Notes under the pieces: model-generated | The model's input: the letters and a program-made list of their open reading frames with translations, nothing else | The model's database searches: none | Told to the model about the DNA's origin: nothing | Assembly: GCA_903858105.1 (NCBI GenBank) | Contig: CAIOHN010000237.1 | Location: 1 to 35,791 of the forward strand | Direction: 5' to 3' | Length of the DNA stretch: 35,791 nt | Origin: an uncultured Pseudomonadota bacterium | GTDB taxonomy: Bacteria > Pseudomonadota > Gammaproteobacteria > Methylococcales > Methylomonadaceae | Part shown: one piece after another, positions 25,836 through 34,417 of the stretch | How positions within the stretch are numbered: position 1 is the stretch's first letter | How the letters are laid out: every line of letters begins with the position of its first letter | Position numbers and translations under genes: made by a program

Positions 25836-26119
25836 ACTAAGGCCTCTGAGATTTGCTGGAGTGAGATTGGCATTGCCAGCAAACGGAGTGCCAAAAATTG
25901 GCAGGCCACGGTTTTAAGGGGGTGGCCAGCGTTGTTCGGGCGGATGCAAGGATATTTTGCAAAAAACTATGTTATTTACCTGATTATGATTTGGTGTTTT
26001 CCCCTGTTTTTAAGCGTGGCAACACTTTTCTGGTTGGCTGGAATCGAGGGATGTTTGTCATTGAGTATGTGCAGCAATTCAGTGATGATGGTGTCGCAGT
26101 CAGTTTTCGAGGTATCGCC

Positions 26120-27145
26120 ATGACGACACTCAGTTTTTCCAAACCGGATAGCTTTATCTTCAAACACAGGGTAGTCGGCATTGTGGCGTTTCCAAATGCG
26201 CAGATTTTGGATATTACCGGCCCCTTTGAAGTATTTAGTTTTGCTAACGCCTTGCTGCAAAAACTAGGTATCTGCGAACAAAAAATTTATTCGATCACAC
26301 TGCTGGCTGCCGAGCCGGGGCCTATAACCACCATGTCCGGGCTGCAAATTGTGGCTGATGAGGCTTATGGCGACTCTGATAGTGAATTCGACACCTTGAT
26401 AATTGCCGGCGGCGAAATTACAGCAGAATTATCCAACGTTAAGCTGCTGGATTGGATCAAGATCATGGTATCCAAAGTCAATCGATTAGCGTCGGTCTGC
26501 ACGGGTGCTTTTCTGCTAGCTGAATCAGGCTTATTGGACGACCGTAAAGCCACCACGCATTGGCATTATTGTCAGCTTCTGGCAAAAAATTATCCGCGGA
26601 TACACATAGAGCCCGATCAAATTTTTGTAAGGGATGGGCGTATTTTTACCTCCGGCGGCATCACCTCAGGAATCGATCTGGCATTGGCTATGGTGGAAGA
26701 GGATTGGGGGCAAGAGTTGGCGCTTGCTGTCGCGCGCTTTTTGGTGGTGTTTCTGAAGCGTCCTGGTGGGCAATCGCAATTCAGTAATTATTTAACCTGC
26801 GAGGCCAGTCATCGGCCCGACCTGCGCGAGTTACAAGCCTGGATCATGGCGCATACCGGCGAAGATTTGCGCGTCGAACTGTTGGCCGAGCGCATGGCGA
26901 TGAGCCCACGTAATTTTGCCCGGCTATTTCTGGCCGAAACCGGCATGACACCTGCCAAATTCGTGGAAATGGCGCGGATTGATCAAGCACGTTTTTTACT
27001 GGAGGTGAGTGAGTTTACGATTGAGCTCATCGCCGACAAGTCCGGCTTTAAAGATACCGAGCGCATGCGTCGGGCATTTATTCGCCAAATTGGCGTCAAT
27101 CCGCAAAATTACCGACAGCGTTTTAGCAAAGCGCTTAGCGCTTAA
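26120..27145 (+). CDS. GlxA family AraC-type transcriptional regulator (DJ-1/PfpI-like domain + HTH)
   Basis: VVGIVAFPNAQILDITGPFEVF; SVCTGAFLLAESGLLDDRKATTHW; C-terminal AraC HTH (MAMSPRNFARLFLAETGMTPAKFVEMARIDQARFLLE). Start trimmed to ATG 26120. Confidence 0.93.
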   Translation: MTTLSFSKPDSFIFKHRVVGIVAFPNAQILDITGPFEVFSFANALLQKLGICEQKIYSITLLAAEPGPITTMSGLQIVADEAYGDSDSEFDTLIIAGGEITAELSNVKLLDWIKIMVSKVNRLASVCTGAFLLAESGLLDDRKATTHWHYCQLLAKNYPRIHIEPDQIFVRDGRIFTSGGITSGIDLALAMVEEDWGQELALAVARFLVVFLKRPGGQSQFSNYLTCEASHRPDLRELQAWIMAHTGEDLRVELLAERMAMSPRNFARLFLAETGMTPAKFVEMARIDQARFLLEVSEFTIELIADKSGFKDTERMRRAFIRQIGVNPQNYRQRFSKALSA

Positions 27146-27238: not shown

Positions 27239-29401
27239 ATGCGTATTTTACTCATTTCAACTGCATTTTCTGGTTTGACGCAACGGTATTACACCGAGCT
27301 TGAAGACGCCGGTTATACGGTTTCTGTAGAGTTACACTTGGGTGATGAGGCCAAATTGTTAGAGGCTGTGGCGCTATTTAAACCGGATCTGATTCTTTGT
27401 CCGTTTCTTACCAAACGCATACCCAAAGCGCTTTACCAAAACTATAAATGTCTGATTGTACATCCAGGCATAAAAGGTGATCGCGGAGCCTCGTCGCTGG
27501 ATTGGGCCATTCAAGCCGGTCTGGATGAGTGGGGTGTCACCTTGCTGGAGGCCGACGAGGAAATGGATGCCGGGGCGATTTGGGTCAGCAAGCGTTTTCC
27601 GTTGCGGGCGGCTACCAAAAGTAGCGTATTCAATCGCGAGCTTACCCAAGCTGCTGTCGATTGTCTGTGGGAGGCTTTGAGTTATTTTGAAGCCCCAGCT
27701 TTTAAACCGGAGCCCTTGGATTACACCAAGCGGGATGTAAAAGGCCGCTTGCAAGCTTGCATGAAACAAGCGGATCGGGCTATCGATTGGAAAAAACAAA
27801 CCACCGCGCAAATTTTGCAGCGCATCCGTGCTGCCGATGGCACACCAGGCGTTTTGGACGAAATATACGGTCAGGCTTTTTACCTGTACAACGCGCAAGC
27901 CGAGGCAACTTTAAGCGGTAAGCCCGGTGAGATTATTGCCGTTGCCAATCAAGCCATTTGCCGGGCGACGATAGACGGCGCGGTATGGATCGGGCATTTG
28001 AAGCCAAAATTACCCGCTGGCAACGCTATTAAATTACCGGCACAAATGGCTTTGCGCGATTTGCAGCCAGCACCGGCAAAAGGCTGGCTGGGCTTATTGA
28101 ATAAAACCGTGAAAAACATCGACATCGACTATACCCAACCCGGCAAACAATGGCCGTGCCAGGAAGTGTGGTACATCCTTGATGATGCCGCAGCGTATAT
28201 CCACTTTGCCTTTCATAATGGCGGTATGAGTACGGCACAGTGCCAGTTATTGTTGGCGGTCTATCAGCATGTGGCCACCTTGGATGTCAAAGTGATTGTG
28301 TTAATGGGCGGCGAAAACTGCTGGTCCAACGGCATTCATCTTAACCACATCGAAGCGGCAAAAAATCCCGCCGACGAATCCTGGCAAAACATCAATGCCA
28401 TGGACGATCTGATTCATCAAATAATTGCTACGATGGATAAGCTAACCATCGCCGCTTTAGCGGGCGGTGCCGGTGCCGGCGGGGCGATCTTGGCGATTGC
28501 GCCGGATCAGGTATTTGTCAGGGAAGGGGTGATTTTTAATCCGCATTACAAGAATATGGGCGAGCTTTATGGCTCGGAATACTGGACGTATTTGCTGCCC
28601 AAACGGGTTGGGCTTGGCATGGCCAATCAATTAACAGAAGAGCGTTTGCCGATCAGCGCCAAAAAAGCCTGGCGGATAGGTTTGGTGGACAGGGTGCTTG
28701 ACCGGCAACTGCCGATATTTCTGGCCCAGGTCAAACAACTGGTTAGCACTTACCTTAACGATCCGGCGGCTTTAACGGCTTTACTGAAGCAAAAAGCCGA
28801 AACCCGCTGTGTCGATGAGGCTGCTAAACCCCTGGCTGCTTACCGTAAATTTGAACTCACCCAAATGTACGCCAACTTTTATGGCAACGACGCTTACCAT
28901 CAGGCCAGGCAATGTTTTGTGTACAAACAAGGCTTGCAAAAAACGCCGGACAATATCGCCAAACATAGGCAATCGGCCGAAGTAAAGGCGCCGCAACCTG
29001 GCAGCTTGCTGCATTTTGCCTGGCAGGAAAGTTATGCCTTGGGCGATGAGAAAATCGATGACCAACACAAAGATTTTTTTGTATTGGCAGAAAAATTATT
29101 GGCTGCTCCGAATAAAGAAGCCATGATCGACACCATGTTTGATTTGTATCAGCATGTAAAAATCCATTTTGGCGAAGAAGAAGCCTTTATGCAGCAAGTG
29201 GGTTTTCATCATTACAAAAGCCATGTCAAAGAGCACAATTTGATGCTGGAAAAGCTATTGGAGATGGATAAAAAAGTCCAGCAAGATAACTGGAATGCCG
29301 AGGATGTGGCGAACTTTATCGATAAATGGACCAAGCATATTTTGAATTCCGACCTGGCGTTTAATCAGCATTGGAAGGAAATGTTTAAGTTCTGTGTATG
29401 A
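27239..29401 (+). CDS. hypX: HypX-like protein (formyltransferase + enoyl-CoA hydratase/isomerase domains) fused to a C-terminal bacteriohemerythrin domain
   Basis: CLIVHPGIKGDRGASSLDWAIQ formyltransferase segment; MGGENCWSNGIHLNHIEAAKNPADESWQNINAMDDL and NPHYKNMGELYGSEYWTYLLPKRVG hydratase segment; continuous reading into hemerythrin. RBS AAGGGG upstream of ATG. Confidence 0.9.
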   Translation: MRILLISTAFSGLTQRYYTELEDAGYTVSVELHLGDEAKLLEAVALFKPDLILCPFLTKRIPKALYQNYKCLIVHPGIKGDRGASSLDWAIQAGLDEWGVTLLEADEEMDAGAIWVSKRFPLRAATKSSVFNRELTQAAVDCLWEALSYFEAPAFKPEPLDYTKRDVKGRLQACMKQADRAIDWKKQTTAQILQRIRAADGTPGVLDEIYGQAFYLYNAQAEATLSGKPGEIIAVANQAICRATIDGAVWIGHLKPKLPAGNAIKLPAQMALRDLQPAPAKGWLGLLNKTVKNIDIDYTQPGKQWPCQEVWYILDDAAAYIHFAFHNGGMSTAQCQLLLAVYQHVATLDVKVIVLMGGENCWSNGIHLNHIEAAKNPADESWQNINAMDDLIHQIIATMDKLTIAALAGGAGAGGAILAIAPDQVFVREGVIFNPHYKNMGELYGSEYWTYLLPKRVGLGMANQLTEERLPISAKKAWRIGLVDRVLDRQLPIFLAQVKQLVSTYLNDPAALTALLKQKAETRCVDEAAKPLAAYRKFELTQMYANFYGNDAYHQARQCFVYKQGLQKTPDNIAKHRQSAEVKAPQPGSLLHFAWQESYALGDEKIDDQHKDFFVLAEKLLAAPNKEAMIDTMFDLYQHVKIHFGEEEAFMQQVGFHHYKSHVKEHNLMLEKLLEMDKKVQQDNWNAEDVANFIDKWTKHILNSDLAFNQHWKEMFKFCV
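29008..29398 (+). other. Bacteriohemerythrin domain in the C-terminus of the HypX-like protein
   Basis: Diiron ligand pattern retained: IDDQHKDFF ... HFGEEEAFM ... HYKSHVKEH ... HILNSDLAF. Confidence 0.9.
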
Positions 29402-29554
29402 ATTGTCGGCGTACTGAGTACGGCGCGTCTTAAAACTCAAATATTTAGAATGTTTCTGCGTTAACTAAGGCTCAAACCCGCGCATCGCTACTGCCCCTGA
29501 AAGCAGGTTTGCTATATCATGGCAGCATCAATTATTAATCAATGGGGCGGGATT

Positions 29555-32500
29555 ATGGATAAGCTAAGGGCGCTGGGTCTCGGGCCGGTAGGCCAGGATG
29601 AACAAGCCGTAAAGCAACAATTGCATCTTTACATCAACCTTAAGCTGGCGTCTTGCGGTCAGCCGACGTGTATCGATAATGCCTCTGCGCAATTCATGGA
29701 TACTGCGCAGGACTTGCTGAACAGCTATCTGGAAAAAAGCCGGCAGTTGGCCTCCTCGTCCTTGTATCCAGCCGACAGGCGTATCCAGGATTTTCTGGAG
29801 CGCTATTGTGCCGATTTGGGTATGGCAAAAGTCCCCAGTTTGCCTACCATGACCTTTGAACTGGACAAACACGGTGTGGCGCGCGAACTGTCTTTGCCCT
29901 TGGGCGAGGATGAATTTCGTTCAGAAATCGTCTCCAGTTTCCGGGTTAAACAAGGTATCTTGCATAACCCGGCCAGTGACCGCCGGACAACGCAAGGCTC
30001 GTTTCACATTGCCGAGGGCGGCTTGCCGGTGCCGGGCGACAAAAAGCAGGTGCCCAAACTGACCTTTGCCTTGATGCTGGCTGAGGCTTTGAATCCCCCC
30101 GCTGATTTATTGATTTTGCCGTTTACCGCGCATCAACCGCAACCAGCGCGGATGTTTGCGTCCTTGCTGCTGCGGCCAGTGGTGTGTCCAGAAATTCCGG
30201 GCGTTGCTGCCGAAAAATCGATGGAGATCCGCTTTTTTGCGCCGGGTAATCTGGTCAGCAACCTGGATTTTGTCGAAAGCATCTTTGGCAATGGCGGCAA
30301 TCCGGCCTTACCGGAGTGCGATGCGGCGCTGGACGTGCAGCATTGGTCTGGCCATAGCGGTTGCGTGATTCTGGCACCGCATTTGAGCAAACTCACCAAA
30401 AAACAACTCGGCTTGCCGCATTGGGATGATGCCACTGAACGCCAACGCGCCGATGGCATGTGTTGGCAAATGCCAACCGAACTGTATAACGAAGGCCAGG
30501 CATTCAAACTGACCGCCCGCGACAGTAGTGGCGTGATTGTGACCTTACTGGCCGATAACTATTACGGCTATTGCAAGAAAGAAATCAAAACTCAAATCAG
30601 CTACGCCGCCAATTTGTTTGGCTTGGCCGAAGAAGAGCATGCCGGTGGCGCGTTGGCGTTTCGCAGAATCAATCATGGCGATGAGTTTGGTATCGGCAGC
30701 CTGACCCGCGAGCCGGGATACGATTTTGACGACATGACCTATCACTACGGCGCGCTGATGGACGTGCAACCGGAAGGCTATGCCATAGACCGAAGCTTTC
30801 CAGACATTATTTATGTACCGCAAGATTTACGGATGAGTCTGGCTACGCAAAAAATCACCTGGCTTAAAAACGGCCAGAGCCACAGCATACGCTTGCAACC
30901 CGGCAAGATTTACGTGCAGCCTAACGGTTATAAAATCGAAATGTGCAAGCATCCCGGCGCGCCGTCCTGGCGATTAATCGGCACGGTGGCCGAGGGTACG
31001 TTTTGCCACAAACCTTGCACGGTGTCTGGCGGCGGCAAGTCGGAAATTTCCAAGTCCATTGAGGACGCGGCAATTTACGGCCCACTGTTCGTCGATGATT
31101 TGCAACACGATCTGGATCGGGTGCAGGCGATTTTTGATAGAGATTATCTAAACCGCTTCTTGCCCGGTCACGAGCATGAAGATCGCGATCCGGTGCGCTC
31201 GGTACTGAGTGCGGAGCGCAGTTTGGGCTCGGTGATCAAAATGCTGACGCCTTCGCCGTATTACCTGCCGGAATTTAATAGCTGGCTGAAATCGATTCCG
31301 CCCAGTATCCTGGCGCTGGTATTTTTGATCAAACGTTTTTACCGCCCTGAGTGGGGCGACAATTGGCGCGATAATTTGTCGGTAGACGTTATAGATGGCG
31401 CACCAGGCCACGAATTGAAACTGCATCAGCGCAAGATCGTCGCCACCTATTTGCGCGTGGGTTTTGACCTGGACGGCGGCTGGCGAACCTTTAAGGTCAG
31501 ACAAGACTATATCGCCTGCGAAAAAGTGCAGATGGAAGACGACATCAGCGCCTCAGTGGTAGTGCCAATGGCGGCAGTGCGGCCCTGGCTGGCGGACGAT
31601 GGCTACAACATGAGCCTGAAATTGGTCAGCAACTGCGAATACCGATTGTTTCAGCGCCCTGACGATGCGGTGATTCCCGGTTACGATAAACAGACCGAAC
31701 TGAATATGTCCGGTGCTGATAATTTTATGGCTAACTTTGAGCCGCTGAACCACGAGAAATTGTCGACTATCGTCGAAGATGTGATGACTTTTTCCAAATT
31801 CACCCCGCCGATGCAAAACTTGCTGGACAAGGCTTATCGTGACGGCAAAGGTTATGTGGTGTGCTCTGCGCATCCACGCCTGGTGGATGGCAAACCGTCG
31901 AAAAATCCGCGCTATCTGGAAACCCGAGTGGATGTGGTGAAACCCTTGCGCAAATATGTGGCCGAGATTGGCGCGCGTTTGCATCGCAAAATCGCCTTGA
32001 ATCAGCCGCTGTGTCATCCGGTCGACGCCGTATTGACCGGGCGGCGTAACAATCCGCCGGAGCCAGGCATTAGAGCGTTGGCGGTTTACAACCCGATTCA
32101 TTATCAAGAATTGCCGGAACTGTTCATGGATTTTGTCAGTTCCTTAACCGGCAAATCGCCGTCGACTACCGGCGCAGGTAGCGAAGGCGCATTGACCAAA
32201 GGGCCTTTCAACGCCTTGCGCGGCACCGTCGATTTGAACAACGCTTTGGTGTCGTTCATCCTTACCGGTTATCCGGGCTTCTCTAGCTCGGCAGGATTCA
32301 TCGGGCCGGATACGCGGGTCGATCACGATGTTAGTTTGTTGATTCCAGAGATTTGGGCGCGTTTATCGCGACAAGAGCGGCAGCCGGAGTTTTTGCTGCA
32401 TCATGGCTATCTGGAGCCATTGGCCGATTTCGAGCATAACGGCCAACTTGTTTTGGCTAGCCGCCTGGGGTATCGCATTACCAGTCACTTCGTGCATGGT

Positions 32501-33025
32501 TTGATGGGCAAGATTTTCGATAACCCGTACGCAGTGTTTACCGACGAGATTTTGCAGCCGGAACGCCAGGATCTGGAGGTGTTTGTCGATGGCATCAACA
32601 ACATCGTCGAAACCCAGCAGCGGGTAGCGCAGCAATATCTGGAAGACGGCAGCGTTGATGATGCCTGTCCGCCACTGTATGCCTTGCTGCATATCATGGC
32701 CAATGGTCATTATCAGGGCAAAGACGCACATCACCCGGAGATTCGGGCCATGTTTACTCGCGACTATTTATTGGCTTCGGCGTGGTATCAGGAACGCTTG
32801 CACATCAAGCAACAACGCGATCTGGCCTTGTGGCAGCGGCATGTCGATTATTTGGCCGGGTTCTTGCATGACAGCAGTCACGAGGCGTTGATTGCCGAGC
32901 TGAGGCTGGTTGAGCGGCATCGTCAGGCCCAGCAAAAGCTGGCAGAGTTGGCTAGCCCAGCGTATTTGCAATCCCTGGTTGGCACCTTGGGAGCCGATCC
33001 TTTAGCGCCGTACGCTAGCGCCTGA
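29555..33025 (+). CDS. Large PEP carboxykinase-superfamily protein, candidate PPi-type PEPCK
   Basis: ~1156 aa; SGGGKSEIS (cf. SGTGKTTLS P-loop of ATP-PEPCK), FVDDLQHDLD (cf. GDDEHGWD kinase-2 region), YYGYCKKEIKTQISYAANL (cf. metal-binding Y.G.E.KKG.FS..NYL). Length matches the PPi-PEPCK family (~1100-1200 aa). Start set to ATG 29555 because of GGGGCGGG RBS. Confidence 0.65.
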   Translation: MDKLRALGLGPVGQDEQAVKQQLHLYINLKLASCGQPTCIDNASAQFMDTAQDLLNSYLEKSRQLASSSLYPADRRIQDFLERYCADLGMAKVPSLPTMTFELDKHGVARELSLPLGEDEFRSEIVSSFRVKQGILHNPASDRRTTQGSFHIAEGGLPVPGDKKQVPKLTFALMLAEALNPPADLLILPFTAHQPQPARMFASLLLRPVVCPEIPGVAAEKSMEIRFFAPGNLVSNLDFVESIFGNGGNPALPECDAALDVQHWSGHSGCVILAPHLSKLTKKQLGLPHWDDATERQRADGMCWQMPTELYNEGQAFKLTARDSSGVIVTLLADNYYGYCKKEIKTQISYAANLFGLAEEEHAGGALAFRRINHGDEFGIGSLTREPGYDFDDMTYHYGALMDVQPEGYAIDRSFPDIIYVPQDLRMSLATQKITWLKNGQSHSIRLQPGKIYVQPNGYKIEMCKHPGAPSWRLIGTVAEGTFCHKPCTVSGGGKSEISKSIEDAAIYGPLFVDDLQHDLDRVQAIFDRDYLNRFLPGHEHEDRDPVRSVLSAERSLGSVIKMLTPSPYYLPEFNSWLKSIPPSILALVFLIKRFYRPEWGDNWRDNLSVDVIDGAPGHELKLHQRKIVATYLRVGFDLDGGWRTFKVRQDYIACEKVQMEDDISASVVVPMAAVRPWLADDGYNMSLKLVSNCEYRLFQRPDDAVIPGYDKQTELNMSGADNFMANFEPLNHEKLSTIVEDVMTFSKFTPPMQNLLDKAYRDGKGYVVCSAHPRLVDGKPSKNPRYLETRVDVVKPLRKYVAEIGARLHRKIALNQPLCHPVDAVLTGRRNNPPEPGIRALAVYNPIHYQELPELFMDFVSSLTGKSPSTTGAGSEGALTKGPFNALRGTVDLNNALVSFILTGYPGFSSSAGFIGPDTRVDHDVSLLIPEIWARLSRQERQPEFLLHHGYLEPLADFEHNGQLVLASRLGYRITSHFVHGLMGKIFDNPYAVFTDEILQPERQDLEVFVDGINNIVETQQRVAQQYLEDGSVDDACPPLYALLHIMANGHYQGKDAHHPEIRAMFTRDYLLASAWYQERLHIKQQRDLALWQRHVDYLAGFLHDSSHEALIAELRLVERHRQAQQKLAELASPAYLQSLVGTLGADPLAPYASA

Positions 33026-33301: not shown

Positions 33302-34417
33302 TCAACCTTTATGCTTAGCTTTACCCTTCGGCGTTTCCCGGGCAATCAATGTCCGCGCCAACTTACGCAAACCATTAGACGACACTTCCAAACCCAGCGG
33401 CGAGCCTATCGATTCCAGTTCGTACATCAAGTCTGTCGCGGCAATCAATGTAACATAGCGCAGTTTCTCGCCGCCCGGTAATTGGGTAGAGGCATCGCGC
33501 AATAGTGGCGCAAACTTGTCCCAAGAGCCGTTAAAAAACTTACGCACTGGGTCGTTTTCGACTACCGATTCGCTGGTCAAGCCTTGCTCAAAAGCCTGTC
33601 CGGCTTTTTGCAGAACATCGCGCAAAGTGGCGCGACCGGTGTCGGCATCGTTAGTGATAGGCGCTTTATCAATCGCTTTTTCTAATGAAGCTTGCCAGCC
33701 TTGCCAGAGGCTTTGCCACTGCTTCAATTCTGCGTCGTTGAGGGCTTTTGCCGTTTTAACCTCGCCGCTGTTTTGATTTTTGGCGGTGTAACCAACGTTG
33801 ATCAAAAGGCCTTTATCGTCCGCTTTGGCCTGATTGAAGCGCAGGCTGTTAATGGTGTCGTGCAATTCTTCGCTGTCTTCAGCCGCAATGTAAGGCAGCA
33901 AGGTTTTGGTGATGTCTGGCCGCGATTGATTCAAGTCGATTTTTAACGACGCCAATTTGGGTTCGGCAGCTTTTTTGATTAAGGATTGCAACTGATCAAT
34001 GTGTAAAGGCTGGCCGTTGCGATCAAAGGCGTTGAGTTGAGTCACCGGGAAGCTGAGCACATTGCCAGTCGAATCCAGCGTCGGTTGTTGCAAGGTTTGC
34101 AAAACGCCAGACCATTCGACCAGCGTCATGCATTTGCCGCCCATTGAGGTGCCGATTCTGGCTTGGACATTATTCTGGATTTTGACCTGGCCTTGCTCGC
34201 CGCTGATTTGCGGATGATCCAGATCCAAAAAGCTGCATTGTTTGCCGTCTTTCCAGGCCCGTACTGATTCGTCCTGGCCGGTATAGAGCTGGCTTACCAG
34301 GATATTTTTGATAAAGCCATATTCCATGGGAACTGGAATATTGATTTCGCGAGCGAGTCCGGGCTGTGCCGTCAGCAACAGGCTGGTGGACAGTAAAATG
34401 GTTCGCAGTGATGACAT
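33302..34417 (-). CDS. Hypothetical exported protein
   Basis: Signal peptide MSSLRTILLSTSLLLTAQPGLA; 371 aa; adjacent to nadE, same strand. Confidence 0.7.
   Translation of the reverse strand: MSSLRTILLSTSLLLTAQPGLAREINIPVPMEYGFIKNILVSQLYTGQDESVRAWKDGKQCSFLDLDHPQISGEQGQVKIQNNVQARIGTSMGGKCMTLVEWSGVLQTLQQPTLDSTGNVLSFPVTQLNAFDRNGQPLHIDQLQSLIKKAAEPKLASLKIDLNQSRPDITKTLLPYIAAEDSEELHDTINSLRFNQAKADDKGLLINVGYTAKNQNSGEVKTAKALNDAELKQWQSLWQGWQASLEKAIDKAPITNDADTGRATLRDVLQKAGQAFEQGLTSESVVENDPVRKFFNGSWDKFAPLLRDASTQLPGGEKLRYVTLIAATDLMYELESIGSPLGLEVSSNGLRKLARTLIARETPKGKAKHKG

Follow-up and report, generated by a model that had tools for sequence, protein, structure and literature searches.

HypX relatives produce CO from formyl-tetrahydrofolate (formyl-THF) via formyl-CoA under oxic conditions (PMC12134894). 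In the Aquifex aeolicus enzyme, for which catalytic residues have been proposed, the C-terminal tail sits at a proposed CO-exit window (PMC6802093). Two questions are open for the [NiFe] cofactor, namely the supply and control of its CO and the reason that a special enzyme is required in air. Enzymes switched by an attached hemerythrin also have precedents (PMC9388753). Here we describe a gene that joins these two themes, found in a contig of an uncultured member of the Methylomonadaceae (the window, 35,791 nucleotides in full), together with its relatives across the order Methylococcales. The features that matter for the argument are as follows.

25898 to 27145, forward strand: AraC-family regulator with an N-terminal DJ-1/PfpI domain, 93 bp upstream of the fusion gene.
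27239 to 29401, forward strand: HypX-hemerythrin fusion gene, 720 aa.
27347 to 28006, forward strand: formyl-THF-dependent formyltransferase module (Formyl_trans_N and Formyl_trans_C), residues 37-256.
28283 to 28921, forward strand: enoyl-CoA-hydratase-like decarbonylase module, residues 349-561.
28979 to 29032, forward strand: linker, residues 581-598, predicted disordered (pLDDT <50) and fast-evolving.
29018 to 29368, forward strand: bacteriohemerythrin domain, residues 594-710, predicted four-helix bundle.

A preliminary description of this DNA had reported one uninterrupted 720-codon frame that carries both HypX modules and ends in a hemerythrin, and this was borne out. The frame runs from an ATG to its stop codon with no internal stop, and the product matches Formyl_trans_N (residues 37-145), Formyl_trans_C (175-256), ECH_1 (349-561) and Hemerythrin (603-704) in Pfam, all four above the curated cut-offs, as well as the NCBIfam hemerythrin domain TIGR02481 (residues 594-710, E 1.9e-20, above cut-off). 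The crystallised A. aeolicus HypX aligns over its full length with residues 1-578 (E 7.6e-147), and entries for that protein are the top Foldseek match of the AlphaFold model (TMt 0.94). The model (mean pLDDT 85, pTM 0.77) consists of a HypX body, the disordered linker and a helical bundle from residue 604; it gives no support for docking of the hemerythrin on the HypX body, and the linker is predicted to be flexible. A stop hidden near 28990-29010 had been raised as a possible flaw, but a sequencing artefact is excluded because tens of independently sequenced genomes carry the fusion unbroken and in frame. Two genes read as one can likewise be ruled out, with the fusion intact in 37 genomes.

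The residues expected for catalysis are in place. H75, D81 and D110 of the fusion correspond to the proposed triad H74/D80/D109 of A. aeolicus HypX, and Y437 and E447 to its Y416 and E426; all five are invariant in the 36 aligned sequences. Since HypX chemistry is established in relatives and these residues are intact, CO formation by the fusion protein is expected: the N-terminal module would transfer the formyl group of N10-formyl-THF to bound CoA, after which formyl-CoA would be decarbonylated to CO by the crotonase-like C-terminal module. The diiron ligand set was also complete, as had been claimed, comprising five histidines, one glutamate and one aspartate (H610, H643, E647, H662, H666, H700, D705). 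The hemerythrin appears to have been added through the flexible linker, straight after the stretch equivalent to the A. aeolicus C-terminal tail. Because it follows the equivalent of a tail that lies near the CO-exit window, an effect on CO release or CoA movement is conceivable. We therefore favour, tentatively and with slightly less than even confidence, a CO-forming HypX that probably serves [NiFe]-hydrogenase maturation and is gated by an O2- or redox-responsive hemerythrin. O2 sensing by the fused domain is a reasonable inference, and the two parts would presumably be coupled; we infer likewise that the protein makes CO, loads its diiron site, is regulated and delivers to HypCD. We know of no hemerythrin that binds CO, so capture of CO by the fused domain is unlikely.

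HypX occurs in 75 of the 251 Methylococcales genomes and the intact fusion in 37, one of which (G185) has it split over two contigs. Within this set intact fusions are confined to the Methylomonadaceae, the window's own family. A scan of genome contigs recovered the complete fusion, at about 720-750 aa, from Methylomonas, Methylobacter, Crenothrix, Methylovulum and related bins; in Methylomonas it is present in 14 of 37 genomes. Outside the order, HypX had no hemerythrin extension in any of 369 class-wide or 399 phylum-wide genomes, and the plasmid HypX matches listed contained no fusion; we reject the idea that the fusion is widespread beyond methanotrophs. The preliminary view that standard HypX architectures do not end in hemerythrin thus stands for about 40 HypX loci outside Methylococcales and for the papers searched, but fails inside one methanotroph family, where the fusion is common. 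In the open literature (subscription papers and preprints lay outside the search) no paper combined HypX with hemerythrin or HypX with a methanotroph, and HypX is absent from both the hemerythrin survey of M. denitrificans and a hypoxia study of Methylobacter. The fusion appears to be undescribed.

A tree of the HypX part, built by a quick method in which gain versus loss depends on the outgroup, fits one hemerythrin gain followed by three or more clean losses (L094/L096, L095 and L099), plus a frameshift in G084. The fusion is best read as having arisen once, judging from these sequences. The window's genome also encodes a second HypX without hemerythrin (L040:5812-7626, contig C248; 604 aa, 66% identical), which branches just outside the fusion clade. 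This paralogue has no AraC neighbour, sits downstream of TadA- and Sua5-like genes, and is also present in two more Methylomonas genomes (L097, L098).

The repeated losses, in which HypX stayed intact throughout, raise the question of whether the hemerythrin is simply a neutral fusion with a bacteriohemerythrin that plays no role in HypX function. That the domain evolves faster than the HypX part would fit such an account. However, differences between relatives in the hemerythrin part are mostly silent (dN 0.09-0.44, with dS saturated or >1), and the seven ligands are kept in 24 of 25 aligned fusions, the exception (L024) being frameshifted inside the hemerythrin, so that every unbroken fusion aligned retains the full set. 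This pattern indicates that the ligands are under constraint, and with the domain also kept across many genera we regard a neutral passenger as very improbable.

The genomic setting of the fusion departs from that of classical HypX. In 27 of 27 loci, that is, in all first-set Methylococcales loci having upstream sequence, hemerythrin-less ones included, the gene immediately upstream, in the same orientation, encodes an AraC/DJ-1 regulator; the gaps are mostly below about 160 bp, with larger ones in L025 and L027. For the window's regulator the listed frame probably begins too early, at a TTG, when set against relatives of about 350 aa. No hyp or hydrogenase gene stands beside HypX at any Methylococcales locus examined, whereas classical-clade HypX of other Gammaproteobacteria adjoins HypE and/or HypD at all 18 loci checked, and the Cupriavidus necator gene is likewise beside hyp genes. 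Expression of the fusion would probably be set by the adjacent AraC/DJ-1 regulator and not through a hyp operon.

The 1168-aa gene downstream of the fusion, at 29519-33025, has no Pfam or NCBIfam match and is, by its matches to PDB 8E1U and 6K31, a PPi-dependent PEP carboxykinase; it was rejected as a partner on account of that identity and of not lying beside the fusion in relatives. A 371-aa frame on the reverse strand (33302-34417) matched nothing in Pfam, in NCBIfam or, by sequence, in the PDB. At ten loci a P-loop gene follows (AAA_26, resembling the N-terminal portion of phosphate acetyltransferase; for example L010:12663-13424, cluster 3 of L009-L030). Two further HypX loci have settings of their own. 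At L154:2079-6945 a HypX relative precedes three genes (125, 478 and 424 aa) that resemble the HCN synthase genes hcnABC in order, size and similarity (SoxA-like, ThiO-like), possibly placing makers of CO and of cyanide side by side. The HypX of a Mycetohabitans plasmid (L155:7995-9749) lies near acyl-carrier and amino-acid ligase genes in a non-hydrogenase context, with no hydrogenase gene among the nearby genes listed.

Regulators of its own and distance from hyp genes may point to another role for this clade, namely that methanotroph HypX makes CO (or formyl-CoA) for a hydrogenase-independent use such as a gas signal or control of C1 overflow, with the hemerythrin gating by O2 or NO and with the AraC/DJ-1 proteins or MHYT kinases as regulatory partners. 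The upstream regulator gene is consistent with this, as is the tree, in which the methanotroph clade branches separately from hyp-operon HypX. At three hemerythrin-less Methylococcales loci (L105:6060-10671, L106:6082-10698 and L113:4484-9422) the genes after HypX encode a response regulator and an MHYT-domain histidine kinase. In CoxC the MHYT domain senses CO by way of copper (PMC11347149), and by analogy these loci probably place a CO maker next to a CO sensor. Moreover, intact hemerythrin-less HypX occurs in five near-complete genomes that yielded no HypD and no NiFe large subunit (G081, G122, G208, G214, G226). Among them, G081 is 99% complete with three HypX genes (L099, L112, L113), and G122 is 100% complete with two copies. 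A sixth genome, G212, is similar, its one large-subunit hit being weak and NuoCD-like. On the other side, the MHYT genes are not adjacent to the fused form, no CO target is known, intact fusions nearly always accompany HypD, and relics are found where HypD has been lost. We consider hydrogenase-independent use possible but rather doubtful. Its most specific form, an AraC-controlled, HypX-derived CO synthase with an O2/NO-responsive hemerythrin gate that signals by CO to partners such as MHYT kinases, we judge unlikely.

The association with HypD is what draws the fusion back toward hydrogenase. HypD is present in 36 of 37 intact-fusion genomes as opposed to 163 of 214 in the rest of the order (Fisher p about 0.0014-0.0017 by genome). 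By lineage p was 0.0008, or 0.0035 with the window's genome counted, on hand-made lineage counts; the tests lack a correction for genome size and a proper one for phylogeny. The sole exception is the window's own assembly, which is 78% complete and in which searches found none of HypD, HypF and NiFe large subunits. Fusion relics occur in three HypD-less genomes: in G156 and G176 transposase-like genes lie within the locus, and in G166 the gene is truncated. HypD-less G226 and G081 keep the HypX part and have no hemerythrin. G176 retains a HoxH-like large subunit, so its missing HypD may reflect fragmentation. Many Methylomonas genomes with an uptake hydrogenase carry no HypX, and a tie to one hydrogenase class was set aside for want of a clear pattern, fusion genomes having either a group-1-like large subunit or soluble types only. 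The [NiFe]-hydrogenase role given to HypX in the preliminary description is therefore plausible for the fusion, whose presence tracks HypD, although it sits uneasily with the lack of a hyp operon, the wider-clade HypX genes in genomes where no hydrogenase was found and the gaps in the window's own assembly. In the gated-HypX reading that we favour, the CO would most likely be used in [NiFe]-hydrogenase maturation.

The link to HypD could also mean that the hemerythrin is not a switch on HypX but a local O2 sink or shield for O2-sensitive Fe-CO assembly at HypCD. An early HypCD step has been proposed to be O2-sensitive (PMC12134894), and A. aeolicus HypX forms complexes with HypC and HypD (PMC6802093). 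However, with a single O2 bound at each diiron site the sink would be very small, and continuous scavenging would need a reductase partner, of which none was found adjacent to the fusion at the loci examined; we think a shield quite unlikely.

With a diiron O2/redox domain built into a natural HypX, a single purified protein is enough for a direct test of how O2 and CO formation are linked. More broadly, methanotroph HypX outside the hyp operon, with its own regulators and probable CO-sensor kinases and in genomes where no hydrogenase was found, suggests that bacteria may use CO beyond hydrogenases.

Compared with described HypX/HoxX proteins (A. aeolicus 6J0P, C. necator, Rhizobium leguminosarum), the fusion shares both modules, the catalytic residues and the fold, and the C. 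necator protein is 43% identical over fusion residues 1-611. It differs from them in the extra C-terminal hemerythrin, the AraC/DJ-1 neighbour, the separate clade and the lack of a hyp operon, and the CoA-contact residues R9, R131, S194, Q195 and R542 of A. aeolicus HypX are also replaced. With bacteriohemerythrins, such as the Methylococcus capsulatus Bath type (PDB 4XPX was matched), it has in common the domain family, the seven ligands and the length; however, its domain is attached to an enzyme instead of standing alone and scores below the cut-off of NF033749. The nearest parallels in design are Bhr-DGC, Bhr-HD-GYP and the P1B-5 ATPase, in which a hemerythrin likewise sits on a catalytic domain as a presumed redox or O2 switch (PMC9388753). 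In the fusion, which may be switched in like manner, the partner is a C1/CO enzyme and not c-di-GMP or transport machinery.
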